Source: Aquiluna sp.
GTDB taxonomy: Bacteria > Actinomycetota > Actinomycetes > Actinomycetales > Microbacteriaceae
Length of the DNA: 36,272 nt
Direction of reading: 5' to 3'
Assembly: GCA_028822985.1 (NCBI GenBank)
Contig: JAPKCK010000010.1
Location: 1-36,272 of the forward strand
Shown: positions 4,294 through 8,727 of the stretch, piece by piece
Numbering within the stretch: position 1 is the stretch's first letter
How the letters are laid out: every line of letters begins with the position of its first letter
The notes under the pieces: model-generated
Database searches by the model: none
Told to the model about the DNA's origin: nothing
Seen by the model: the letters and a program-made list of their open reading frames with translations, nothing else
Position numbers and translations under genes: made by a program

Positions 4294-6267
4294 TTAGTCG
4301 TTAGCACCAGAGTCGAGCTTTTGGCCGATAATGTCCATGACCGAAGTGTCCGTGAGGGTGCTTATGTCGCCAATCGGTCGATCTTCAGCAACGTCTCTTA
4401 GGAGCCTGCGCATAATCTTTCCGGAACGAGTTTTGGGCAGTTCGCTCACCACGAAGATTGACCTTGGCCGAGCAATCGGACCTATCTGACTTGCAACATG
4501 ATCACGCAGAATCTTTGAGGTGTCGGCTTCGCTACCGAGTTTGTCTATTTCTTCTCGCATCAGAATCACAAACGCCACAATTGCCTGCCCAGTGGTTTCA
4601 TCGGAAGCTCCCACCACGGCAGCTTCTGCTACATAGGGGTGAGCTACCAGCGCTGACTCAATCTCTGTCGTGCTGAGTCGGTGACCAGAGATGTTCATCA
4701 CGTCGTCCACACGGCCGAGTAACCAAAGGTCGCCATCGGCGTCTAGTTTTGCGCCGTCACCCGCAAAATAAACTCCTGGAAACCTGGACCAATAAGTTTC
4801 CTTGAACCGTTCTGGGTCTCCCCAGATACCTCGCAGCATTGCGGGCCAGGGCTCAGTGATCGCTAGGTAGCCGCCGTGACCGGGCCCAAGCTTTTTGCCG
4901 TCTTCATTGATTACCGCAATCTCGATTCCTGGAAGTGGCACTTGAGCACTACCGGGCTTGGTTTTTGTGATCCCAGGTAGTGCAGAAACCATGATCGCTC
5001 CAGTTTCGGTCTGCCACCAGGTATCGACAATCGGCGCTTTGTCAGAGCCAATCGCCTTTCGATACCACAGCCAGGCTGCTGGGTTTATTGGCTCACCAAC
5101 CGAACCAAGGACTCTTATCGAGCTCAGGTCGTAGTGACTTACGACCGAGTCGCCTAGTTTCATAAAGCTTCTAATTGCGGTGGGTGCGGTGTAGAAAATG
5201 CTGACGTGGTACTTCTGAACAATGTCCCACCAACGGCCCCAGTCCGGGGTGTCCGGTGTGCCCTCGTAAATCACTTGCGTTGCACCATTGGCAAGTGGCC
5301 CGTAGACAACATAGGTGTGGCCGGTTATCCAGCCGACATCGGCCGTGCACCAATAAACATCCTGACCCTCGTGCAGATCAAAGACGTTTTTGTGAGTGAA
5401 GCTTGATTGAGTTAGATATCCGCCGGTGGTGTGCAGAATCCCCTTAGGCGTTCCGGTGGTTCCCGAAGTGTAGAGAATAAACAGCGGGTGCTCGGCATTG
5501 AACCCCTTGGCTACATGCTCGTTGTCAACGCTCTGCATTTGCTCTTCCCACCAGACATCGCGGGCGGAATCCCAGTCAACGTCTTGGCCAGTTCGCTTCA
5601 CCACAAGCACCTGTTCGACGCTCGGGCAGTTTCCATCCTGAAGAGCCTGATCTACCGCTGGCTTCAGCGCGCTGGCTTTACCTTTTCGATAACCACCATC
5701 GGCCGTGATGACTACCTTGGCCCCAGCATCTTGAATTCTGGACGCCAATGACTCGGCGCTAAAACCGCCAAACACGACCGAGTGCACAGCGCCGATTCTG
5801 ACGACTGCCTGCATGGCGATGATCGCTTCCGGAATCATCGGCATATAGATAGCCACCCGATCACCTGGTTCAACGCCCATTCTTATTAGGACGTTCGCTG
5901 CTTTTTTTACAGCCTTGAGCAAATCTAAGTAGGTATAAACCTGACTGTCGCCCGGTTCTCCTTCAAAAAACAACGCCACTCGCTTGCCCCAGCCGGCTTC
6001 AACGTGACGGTCAAGGCAGTTGTAGCTCACATTCAGTTCGCCGTCGGCAAACCACTTTGCAAACGGTGCGTTAGTAAAATCTAGGGTCTCAGTAAAAGGC
6101 TTGTGCCAGTGCAGCTCCCTGGCTTTCTCGGCCCAGAATTCCAAACGGTCCTCCTGGGCCCGGTCGTAGATACCAGGCTTAGCTATTGCGGCTTCGGCGA
6201 ATTCCTTAGAAGGCGCAAATGAGTCAGTATCGGTCAGCAGGGACTCTATTTCGTGCTGTTCAGACAA
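4294..6267 (-). CDS. acs: Acetyl-CoA synthetase (AMP-forming)
   Basis: A 657-aa acetate-CoA ligase, the usual length for Acs. It activates acetate with ATP to acetyl-AMP and then acetyl-CoA in the cytoplasm, feeding the TCA/glyoxylate routes. Motifs: P-loop-like YTSGTTGTPKG at 266-276, GSVGEPINPAAW at 388-399, WWQTETG at 417-423 (acetate/AMP pocket), SGHRLSTTEIE at 527-537, and PKTRSGKIMRR at 611-621 whose Lys617 is the catalytic lysine that is reversibly acetylated in the family. The start is TTG at 6267, backed by GGAGG seven bases upstream; the ATG-less N-terminus MSEQHEIESLL is typical. It diverges from the 6C-like RNA and Tad operon across about 300 bases; control from that region is likely but unproven. 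Confidence 0.97.
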   Translation of the reverse strand: MSEQHEIESLLTDTDSFAPSKEFAEAAIAKPGIYDRAQEDRLEFWAEKARELHWHKPFTETLDFTNAPFAKWFADGELNVSYNCLDRHVEAGWGKRVALFFEGEPGDSQVYTYLDLLKAVKKAANVLIRMGVEPGDRVAIYMPMIPEAIIAMQAVVRIGAVHSVVFGGFSAESLASRIQDAGAKVVITADGGYRKGKASALKPAVDQALQDGNCPSVEQVLVVKRTGQDVDWDSARDVWWEEQMQSVDNEHVAKGFNAEHPLFILYTSGTTGTPKGILHTTGGYLTQSSFTHKNVFDLHEGQDVYWCTADVGWITGHTYVVYGPLANGATQVIYEGTPDTPDWGRWWDIVQKYHVSIFYTAPTAIRSFMKLGDSVVSHYDLSSIRVLGSVGEPINPAAWLWYRKAIGSDKAPIVDTWWQTETGAIMVSALPGITKTKPGSAQVPLPGIEIAVINEDGKKLGPGHGGYLAITEPWPAMLRGIWGDPERFKETYWSRFPGVYFAGDGAKLDADGDLWLLGRVDDVMNISGHRLSTTEIESALVAHPYVAEAAVVGASDETTGQAIVAFVILMREEIDKLGSEADTSKILRDHVASQIGPIARPRSIFVVSELPKTRSGKIMRRLLRDVAEDRPIGDISTLTDTSVMDIIGQKLDSGAND

Positions 6268-6302
6268 CTTTGCCCTCCAGGTGGTTTCTAGTTTGGTACC
6301 TA

Positions 6303-6308
6303 ATCTTA
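6303..6308 (-). promoter_or_regulatory. Possible -10 of acs
   Basis: TAAGAT on the minus strand, 35 bases before the TTG start, would give a leader of roughly 28 bases holding the GGAGG site. No convincing -35. An inverted repeat TATCG-N7-CGATA lies upstream at 6356-6372 and could be an operator. Confidence 0.3.
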
Positions 6309-6423
6309 TTATCGGTTTTCATTGCTGTTTCGGCTATCACGCTAGCGCTTTTCGTTATCGGCCATGTCGATACCTAAAGAGATCTGAATGTACTTACAGA
6401 CAAAAATATTCGTATTTTGCCCA

Positions 6424-6444
6424 TTGTCCCGAAATGGGGGACAA
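6424..6444. promoter_or_regulatory. 21-bp perfect inverted repeat, candidate operator of the 6C-like RNA promoter
   Basis: TTGTCCC - N7 - GGGACAA, with seven perfect base pairs per arm, ends 17 bases before the TAAGAT -10 hexamer at 6462. This places the right arm over the expected -35 position. The symmetry suggests a dimeric regulator. The regulator is not identifiable from the window. Confidence 0.5.
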
Positions 6445-6461
6445 ATCTACAAAATCTTCTA

Positions 6462-6467
6462 TAAGAT
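6462..6467 (+). promoter_or_regulatory. -10 element of 6C-like RNA / Tad transcript
   Basis: TAAGAT within the AT-rich stretch around 6455-6470 fits TANNNT and would start transcription near 6473-6475, just before the first hairpins. Confidence 0.45.
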
Positions 6468-6473
6468 TAAAGG

Positions 6474-6560
6474 GCTGATTAGTCAGTCGCGATGCCACAT
6501 CCCCCATGTCGGCATCGCCGGCAGCAGGTTTCCCCAAACCTGCTGCCACCCTAATTTTCC
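6474..6560 (+). ncRNA. 6C-like small RNA (two hairpins with C-only loops)
   Basis: Two adjacent strong hairpins: 6491-6516 (GATGCC-ACAT paired with ATGT-c-GGCATC, loop CCCCC) and 6520-6547 (a perfect 12-bp stem GGCAGCAGGTTT, loop CCCC). Two stem-loops with C-rich loops define the 6C RNA of Actinobacteria (Rfam 6C), and in M. tuberculosis the 6C RNA (B11) lies beside the Rv3660c-Rv3654c Tad-type locus, the same context as here. The family is reported to base-pair with G-rich mRNA targets through its loops. The loops here have 5 and 4 C rather than 6 or more. Both ends are estimated: start from the TAAGAT hexamer, end from the short T-run at 6554-6557. A small extra hairpin CTGA-ttag-TCAG lies near the 5' end. 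Identification is by structure and synteny, not by a model search. Confidence 0.72.
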
Positions 6561-6562
6561 CC

Positions 6563-6588
6563 AGCTTCGTCTTTTTTGACACGAAGCT
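6563..6588 (+). promoter_or_regulatory. Hairpin enclosing the tadA TTG start
   Basis: AGCTTCGT (6563-6570) pairs perfectly with ACGAAGCT (6581-6588) around a 10-base loop that holds the TTG start codon at 6576-6578. No Shine-Dalgarno sequence is visible before this TTG. The hairpin could restrain translation, or the real start could be the GTG at 6615. Confidence 0.4.
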
Positions 6589-7526
6589 TCCGGCCCACGA
6601 ACGAACATAAGTTTGTGGAGATCAATCAACTAAGCATTTGGCAAATAATCGACACCCCTGGGGTTACCGATCTGGTCATCGATGGCGCCAGTTATGCTCG
6701 CGCGGATTATGGGTCCGGCTTTCAGGATGTTGAATCGCCATTTATTACAGACCAGGATCTTTCCGAAGCTATCATCCAGCTCGCGCTAGATGCCGGATCA
6801 AGAATCGATATCGCAAAGCCGGTTGCCGATTTCGTTTATCGCGGAGCAAGGTTTCACGCCATCTTGCCATTCGGGTTATCTGCCAAGCCGTTGCTGAGCA
6901 TTCGGGTTCACCCCAGTAAGCCCCAACCTCTTGAGTCGCTGCAGGCAGCTGGAATGTTCTCTAATCAACAGCTCGATTGGCTTAGGCGGCAAATGTTTCA
7001 TAAAAAGAACATCGTCTTTAGTGGTCCAACCGGTGTAGGCAAAACCACCTTGTTGCGTTCGCTCTTGAGTGAAGTCACTGAGCGAGTGATCTGTATTGAG
7101 CAAACACCAGAACTGTTTCTCGCTCCACCCGCGATTGCCCTTACAGAGAGGGAAGCAAACCAAGAAGGTGTCGGTCAAATCGAGCTGGATGAACTAATAG
7201 TTCACGCCCTTCGCATGCGACCAGATCGCATAGTGGTCGGCGAAGTGCGCTCAAAAGAGTTCAGAGTGTTGTTGCAAGCTATCAACAATGGGCACGAGGG
7301 CACCCTAACGACTCTGCATGCAAATAACTTGGAAAGTGTCGCGGAGCGACTATTAGTCCTTGGGTTGCTCGGGAACCTAACTTCCGAGCTCACCTCGAGG
7401 CTCGTTTCCCAATCGATCGATTACGTGGTTCAGCTGGGGAAAAAAGGAAACCAAAGAGTCATTTCGGGGATTGGTCAACCGATCATGACCCCAACTGGGC
7501 TAGTGGTTCAGAGGGTGGCAATCTAA
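6576..7526 (+). CDS. tadA: TadA/CpaF-type secretion ATPase
   Basis: Hexameric motor ATPase of Tad/Flp pilus assembly (type II/IV secretion superfamily), 316 aa, cytoplasmic. N-terminal domain about 18-115 (DTPGVTDLVIDG, then the RGARFHAILP strand typical of CpaF); Walker A GPTGVGKTT at 150-158; Asp box; Walker B RPDRIVVGEVR at 215-225; His box GHEGTLTTLHAN at 239-250. The TTG start at 6576 has no visible ribosome-binding site; an in-frame GTG at 6615 (MEINQLSIW) is an alternative and would keep the whole family domain. First gene of a five-gene Tad operon, overlapping the next gene by one base (TAATG). The CpaE-like protein that precedes this gene in other actinobacteria is missing. Confidence 0.92.
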   Translation: MTRSFRPTNEHKFVEINQLSIWQIIDTPGVTDLVIDGASYARADYGSGFQDVESPFITDQDLSEAIIQLALDAGSRIDIAKPVADFVYRGARFHAILPFGLSAKPLLSIRVHPSKPQPLESLQAAGMFSNQQLDWLRRQMFHKKNIVFSGPTGVGKTTLLRSLLSEVTERVICIEQTPELFLAPPAIALTEREANQEGVGQIELDELIVHALRMRPDRIVVGEVRSKEFRVLLQAINNGHEGTLTTLHANNLESVAERLLVLGLLGNLTSELTSRLVSQSIDYVVQLGKKGNQRVISGIGQPIMTPTGLVVQRVAI

Positions 7527-8267: not shown

Positions 8268-8429
8268 ATGCAACTACTAAAATCCGAAGACGGTGCCATC
8301 ACCGCCGAATATGCCATTGCCACTCTTGCCGGGGTCGCGTTTGCGGGTCTCATGCTGCTGGTGCTGAAATCAGAGGAGGTCAGGTCACTGTTATTCAAGT
8401 TGATTGCAGGAGCAATTGGGCTTGGCTAG
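8268..8429 (+). CDS. DUF4244/Flp-type pilin
   Basis: A 53-aa small pilin. It has a short charged leader MQLLKSEDG followed by AITAEYAIATLAG: a prepilin-peptidase site G|A with Glu at +5, then a hydrophobic helix (about 15-33) and a basic-amphipathic tail. This is the DUF4244 pilin found in the same place in the actinobacterial Tad cluster (Rv3656c position). It is the likely major subunit of the fibre. The start is supported by AAGAAAGGA upstream of ATG. Its stop overlaps the start region of the TadE-like gene. The prepilin peptidase (TadV) is not in the window. Confidence 0.85.
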   Translation: MQLLKSEDGAITAEYAIATLAGVAFAGLMLLVLKSEEVRSLLFKLIAGAIGLG

Positions 8430-8727
8430 CAAAAGCTTGTCCAGTGATCATGGGGCGGTAACAGCAGAGTTCATGCTGCTGTTACCGGCTCTCATGATGC
8501 TATTTGCCACGGTTCTCGGTTCAGTGGTTTTTGCAACCGATCGAATAGCACTTGAGGTAAAAGGTTTTGAGGCAGCTAGGTCACTCGCCCTTGGGCTTGA
8601 TATTCGAGCTGAAGAGGGAATCGAAATTGAGAAATCCTTAGAAGGGGCTCTAATTTGCGCAAAAATAACCAAACAGTCGGCCATGCCCATGAGCACCAAG
8701 CTCTGCGTCATGCAGGTTGGTCAGTAG
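8422..8727 (+). CDS. TadE-like pseudopilin
   Basis: A 101-aa TadE-family minor pilin. The N-terminus has HGAVTAEFMLLLPALMM, a G|AVTAE processing site with Glu at +5 followed by a transmembrane helix (about 12-36), then a short extracytoplasmic domain with two Cys (in LICAK and LCVMQ) that could form a disulfide. I choose TTG at 8422 because AGGAG at 8408-8412 sits nine bases upstream; the frame is open from TTG 8404, but that start would overlap the pilin more and lacks such a site. It overlaps the pilin stop by 8 bases and the next gene by 73. Confidence 0.78.
   Translation: MASKSLSSDHGAVTAEFMLLLPALMMLFATVLGSVVFATDRIALEVKGFEAARSLALGLDIRAEEGIEIEKSLEGALICAKITKQSAMPMSTKLCVMQVGQ

Follow-up and report, generated by a model that had tools for sequence, protein, structure and literature searches.

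The window, that is, the whole stretch of 36,272 nucleotides analyzed here, belongs to an Aquiluna genome of 1.28 Mb in 26 contigs. The element under study lies in the spacer between acs, on the minus strand, and the plus-strand gene for a TadA-type ATPase, neighbors that the initial annotation had named correctly. The closest named relatives of tadA are those of Candidatus Aquiluna sp. IMCC13023 (98 percent) and other Aquiluna assemblies, and its GTG/ATG-GAG start is present in relatives. The TadA-type ATPase scored above cut-off with Pfam T2SSE and reached 236.9 bits with TIGR03819, under the cut-off of 373 for that family. The operon further encodes one TadB/C-like protein (T2SSF, 24.4 bits, just under the cut-off of 25.2), an Rv3654c-family TadE-like protein (TIGR03816, 57.3 bits, above the cut-off of 50.95), and a Flp-like ORF of 53 amino acids (8268-8429) that was judged by eye only. 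An additional ORF, 8404-8727, had no match in the domain and family profile searches. With an ATPase, a TadB/C-like protein, a TadE-like protein and the Flp-like ORF, "minimal Tad operon" is a fair label. The features of the locus are as follows.

4294-6267, minus strand: acs, acetyl-CoA synthetase, divergently oriented neighbor (ORF).
6438-6443, plus strand: promoter-like element GGGACA, within TGGGGGACAAA at 6435-6445; conserved, putative -35 element.
6460-6465, plus strand: candidate -10 hexamer TATAAG, 16 nt 3' of GGGACA, read from the sequence and the genus loci.
6474-6487, plus strand: 5' hairpin without a C-loop, 5 bp, loop UUAG; from the fold and from compensatory changes in 14 genus loci (alignment columns 4-8).
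6489-6518, plus strand: second hairpin, stem of 12 bp and a one-base bulge (6510), loop CCCCC (6501-6505); from the fold and the match to model R1 (see below).
6520-6547, plus strand: third hairpin, perfect 12 bp, loop CCCC (6532-6535); from the fold and the R1 match.
6548-6559, plus strand: weak terminator-like U-rich tail ACCCUAAUUUUC, read from the sequence.
6576-7526, plus strand: ORF of tadA, TadA-type secretion ATPase, with a probable GTG start at 6615 (6615-7526); from T2SSE and the starts of relatives.

RNA folding of positions 6474-6560 yielded two adjacent hairpins with C-only loops (6489-6547) 3' of a small hairpin. The minimum free energy of this fold was -42.3 kcal/mol, compared to a mean of -17.3 (sd 2.7) for shuffled sequences (z -9.4), and none of 200 shuffles reached the same stability. 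We also scanned both strands of the window for C-loop hairpins, defined by a stem of at least 8 pairs with one bulge allowed and a C-only loop of 4 to 9, and these two hairpins were the only ones found. Dinucleotide-shuffled windows (n=200) contained a mean of 0.58 and a maximum of 3 C-loop hairpins, and a pair of them within 60 bases occurred in 0 of the 200. The two adjacent C-only loops reported by the initial annotation are thus borne out by both the fold and the scan. Its stem lengths were right for the perfect 12 bp of the third hairpin and wrong for the first C-loop stem, which has 12 pairs and a bulge instead of 10.

The 6C RNA belongs to a small number of regulatory RNAs that occur widely across Actinobacteria. 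The initial annotation had taken the element for a 6C-like RNA and had named the Rfam 6C covariance model (RF01066, gathering score 47 bits) as a check, the lack of a hit counting against that identity. RF01066 indeed gave no match in the window at the gathering score, and nothing at E<=10 either in 6268-6660 or in the whole genome. However, when 150 Microbacteriaceae genomes were searched, 97 had a match at E<=1 but 5 were above the Rfam cut-off, so this test is blunt in the family. The only genome of the control set with an RF01066 match was that of Corynebacterium glutamicum, itself under the cut-off. Weak Rfam matches to CRISPR-DR56, MIR444 and CcsR1 scored far under the respective cut-offs and were treated as chance hits.

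A lineage model, R1, was made from the 6C sequences of 21 Microbacteriaceae loci that RF01066 had identified, none of them from the genus Aquiluna. Its alignment (A2) comprised 21 of the 28 family loci (L021-L048), after removal of two repeats (L031, L032) and a near repeat (L025); L024, L040, L044 and L046 were also outside A2, having been missed by the text pattern, and of these, L024, L040 and L046 later matched R1 and L044 did not. R1 gave a single window match at E<=10, at 6461-6555 (34.3 bits, E 4.9e-7; R1 E-values are rough because the calibration was short). It matched 14/14 of the genus loci supplied (E 8.9e-11 to 6.1e-7) and, at the 6C place, 10/10 loci outside the family, eight over most of the model and two partially (E 4.9e-6 to 0.015). 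Searched against whole genomes, R1 found the element in 16 of the 22 genus genomes and missed others, including the window's genome (G000), apparently because these were lost in the first look of the search. Pooling the locus and whole-genome R1 searches, the element was present in 21 of the 22 genus genomes, the exception (G021) being about 50 percent complete. In whole-genome searches of the 150 Microbacteriaceae genomes, the lineage-specific model found 6C in 122, versus the 5 above the Rfam cut-off, which hides this RNA in most of one large family. Among small-genome relatives, three loci missed by the searches carried the element (L086 and L087 from one genus, L092 from another), and whole-genome counts are therefore lower bounds. 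One locus outside the family (L073) showed a second, weaker R1 match at 1022-1125 (20.2 bits, E 0.009, with the same rough calibration), about 0.6 kb upstream of its 6C, possibly a second 6C copy.

The genomic place of the element was conserved. We fetched 20 genus loci and set aside six as chance (L015-L020, with neither acs nor tadA and with weak E-values); the 14 confirmed loci all sit between acs and tadA, one of them (L004) ending inside tadA. Among the 28 family loci, two of which repeat a genome, both acs and tadA were found within a few kb in 21, one of them in 5 and neither in 2. RF01066 at E<=0.001 detected 6C in 10 of 149 genomes drawn from the phylum, the ten coming from six genera. 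Of these ten 6C loci outside the family, nine had a tadA relative starting 1.1-2.1 kb downstream in the same orientation, and seven had acs within the stretch on the upstream side. The gap of 1.1-2.1 kb would fit Rv3660c (tadZ), the gene at that place in M. tuberculosis. The synteny in the genus, in the family and in 9/10 loci outside it indicates that the place of 6C upstream of tad genes is old.

These data bear on whether the locus simply carries unrelated tandem hairpins that resemble 6C. The missing Rfam match and loops shorter than the name demands would agree with this. We nevertheless find it highly improbable, given the match to a model free of genus members (E 4.9e-7) and the same genomic place with the same order of three hairpins. 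RF01066 also revealed no genuine 6C at another position of this genome (E<=10). In our reading, the profile, the synteny and the preserved stems described below identify the element as a divergent 6C orthologue. The 6C identity proposed at first reading thus holds through R1, synteny and stems, though not through the Rfam model, and we file the element as a 6C variant because it lacks the literal features, six C per loop and a score above the Rfam cut-off.

The initial annotation had also suggested aligning the acs-tadA region of relatives for compensatory changes, and such changes were found. Two alignments were fitted to R1 and hence lean towards its structure: A3, with 14 genus sequences and 23 pairs, and A4, a wider set of 43 sequences. 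In A3, 282/282 cells with letters on both sides formed standard pairs (100 percent). Changes on both sides of a pair were seen in 10 of the 23 pairs and in 41 cells, compared to 11.0 (sd 2.7) in shuffled alignments, a value reached by 0/500 shuffles; the number of pairs changed on both sides was reached by 11/500. When A3 was slid, at most 10 such cells were obtained. Further pair types were not above the shuffles in A3 (15 versus 14.8; 294/500 reached this number). Within the second hairpin, helices 1 and 2 together have 10 pairs, 7 of which changed on both sides in the 14 genus loci. A4, with the same lean, showed both-side changes in 21/23 pairs and in 179 cells versus 39.7 in shuffles, and none of 500 shuffles reached it on any of the five measures. 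RNAalifold on a plain MAFFT genus alignment (A1) supported the 5' and the last hairpins by compensatory changes; the first C-loop stem was misaligned there and hence missed, and it is present only in the model-fitted alignments. Altogether, the element is a real, conserved RNA element.

The C-loops are short. Our loop table held 19 rows from the 21 genus genomes with a match (without G004 and G015) and 27 rows from other genera of the family. The C-runs of those 27 loci were 6/6 in 19, 6/7 in 1, 5/6 in 4 and 5/5 in 3. Among the 19 genus rows, the first loop was C6 in 10 and C5 in 9, and the second was C5 in 15 and C4 in 4, the latter being the window and its three closest relatives. The feature of six or more C is therefore lacking in the window, with its loops of C5 and C4, and an excerpt of PMC4046766 describes 6C loops as "typically containing six" C. 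The initial annotation was right about the 5/4 loops, which prove to be a lineage trait, since the window clade has 5/4 where 19/27 other family loci have 6/6. Excerpts of PMC10470900 report that in M. abscessus, a first loop reduced from 6 to 5 C acts as a partial loss of function, although glycopeptidolipid genes and colony form were for the most part restored. In Aquiluna, loop length thus equals or falls short of a length that weakens the RNA elsewhere; the structure is nonetheless kept.

Such loops could point to a decaying 6C relic in a reduced genome, in which loops shrink as the RNA pairs with nothing. The shortening across the genus, most pronounced in the window clade, would be in line with this decay, as would the M. 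abscessus result. Moreover, three loci of small-genome relatives (L088, L089, L090) have acs and tadA adjacent and no 6C between them, which indicates that 6C can be lost. Yet every cell of the genus alignment keeps a standard pair (282/282 in 14 loci), the changes are compensatory, and the element is present in 21/22 genus genomes, so that we judge a relic to be quite unlikely.

Upstream of the element, GGGGAC was found in 14/14 genus loci. The 11-mer TGGGGGACAAA occurs once in the window's genome, at 6C, and it has 17 matches in 15 of the 22 genus genomes, 9 of them at the 6C place when coordinates were compared. Nothing in these exact-word matches pointed to a broader regulon for this motif. 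Hexamers similar to TACACT or TATAGT lie in family loci at a place comparable to that of TATAAG. Together, these elements predict an RNA start at about 6471-6473, just 5' of the first hairpin. On the 3' side of the last hairpin, most genus rows have a stronger tail, of the CCCUUUUCUUUU type, than the weak one of the window clade. A consensus scan of 6268-6640 returned no promoter and no terminator. The conserved promoter-like stretch and the U-rich tail in most of the genus favor a separate small RNA, and both conservation and analogy with 6C elsewhere make a discrete small RNA likely.

Alternatively, the element could act in cis on the tad operon, as a leader or attenuator whose last hairpin stops transcription unless prevented from doing so, the mature small RNA being a by-product. 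The initial annotation had suggested, from the codirectional arrangement, that the RNA might be a processing product of tad mRNA or might run on into it; such processing or read-through may occur. The element is codirectional with tadA in the window, and tadA also lies downstream on the same strand in 9/10 loci outside the family. In addition, the window's tail is so weak that the consensus scan did not score it as a terminator, which makes read-through into tad plausible. Against this, loci outside the family have a distance of 1.1-2.1 kb between the RNA and tadA, and the preserved parts are the C-loops and stems, which an attenuator does not need. The mycobacterial 6C RNA, B11, moreover acts in trans, on a reporter carried by a plasmid, according to excerpts of PMC12395582. 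On balance, we regard a cis-acting leader as unlikely.

Other motifs flank the element. At 6425-6445, the GGGGGACA element often has a mirrored upstream partner, in the form of TTGTCCC...GGGGGACAA in the window and TTCCCC...GGGGGA in others; the mirrored pair looks like an operator and might serve a dimeric regulator of 6C or acs. Directly 3' of the U-rich tail, 12/19 genus loci have a word TT[AGT]TNCACA, mostly TTTTCCACA, which resembles a DnaA box. This word was found in 16/44 acs-tadA spacers (for example, L006, L008-L014, L052, L056, L058), at 0.88 per kb versus 0.058 per kb in the flanks, in loci that are related and with the first T's of the word coming from the U-tail. The window does not contain it and has TTTTCCCCA at about 6555-6563. 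In many family loci, TTAAC lies directly 3' of the U-rich tail, for example, in L022, L024, L028 and L039.

The reading that we consider probable as a whole is that of an Aquiluna 6C orthologue at the ancestral site upstream of tad, with short C-loops and its own promoter, that silences mRNAs through pairing of C-loops with G-runs. For transcription, RNA ends, base-pairing, targets and direction of regulation, we infer the following sequence of events. The RNA would be transcribed from a promoter just upstream and would be about 85-90 nt long with three hairpins, the last of which would double as terminator. The C-only loops would pair with G-runs in or near the ribosome-binding sites of other mRNAs, and this pairing would lower the translation and stability of the targets. 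Such a mechanism is described for B11 in excerpts of PMC12395582 and PMC10470900, where the C-loop is the seed that pairs near G-rich ribosome-binding sites and lowers the targets.

As to targets, excerpts of a review name panD and dnaB for the mycobacterial 6C RNA (PMC8628891). We found panD in 0/22 genus genomes. For dnaB, 19 of 20 loci were counted, L096 being excluded as its scanned stretch fell short of the start codon; GGGG was near the start in 2/19 and a longer G-run in 0/19. These targets do not carry over, and the Aquiluna regulon must differ from the mycobacterial one. The pattern G5-N4..10-ATG occurred 90 times in the window's genome versus 50 times for the reversed pattern, a count that we set aside because the control is unfair, ATG and GTA differing in frequency. 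Many genus loci (L095-L114) have clustered TTATCCACAG-like words ahead of dnaB, possibly an origin or a DnaA-controlled region. A re-tuned variant of the mechanism, in which the C5/C4 loops have shifted to targets with short G-runs and tad is in addition controlled in cis via terminator read-through, seems doubtful to us.

Our literature searches found no report joining 6C RNA with Microbacteriaceae, and for 6C RNA together with tad or pilus, there was no 6C RNA among the matches listed. While the 6C family itself is known, three points deserve follow-up, namely how short the loops are here, how poorly the RNA is detected and how old its site upstream of tad is. With natural loops ranging between C4 and C7 at a single orthologous site, the relation of loop length to target choice is directly testable, and the 6C site upstream of tad genes in several families raises the question of a functional link.

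The element can be compared with several known RNAs. CcsR1 (RF02791) likewise has C-rich loops, and its match at 6482-6554 is at chance level (11.9 bits, E 3.4, far under the gathering score of 65.3), so kinship was not supported. Like the 6C RNA (RF01066), the Aquiluna element consists of a leading hairpin, two neighboring hairpins whose loops are C only, and a U-rich tail, and it lies upstream of tad; it differs in being below RF01066 detection and in its C5/C4 loops, compared to C6/C6 in 19/27 other family loci. For the 6C RNA of C. glutamicum (cgb_03605), an excerpt of PMC4046766 describes an abundant, discrete species about 100 nt long on Northern blot; this RNA has two runs of eight C where the Aquiluna element has five and four. 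B11, the mycobacterial 6C of 93 nt, is the parallel drawn at first reading, and rightly so: excerpts of PMC8628891 and PMC12395582 place it between Rv3660c and Rv3661. Like the Aquiluna element, B11 has three stem-loops, the last two C-rich, and a site upstream of tad genes; its third stem-loop lies in the terminator, and it has its own -10 hexamer (PMC12395582, in excerpt). Unlike its site, its panD and dnaB targeting does not extend to Aquiluna. In M. marinum, the C-loops of B11 carry 6 and 9 C, the seed being the final one, located in the terminator hairpin (PMC12395582, in excerpt), whereas the Aquiluna loops have 5 and 4 C and the third loop, the seed in M. marinum, is the shorter one.
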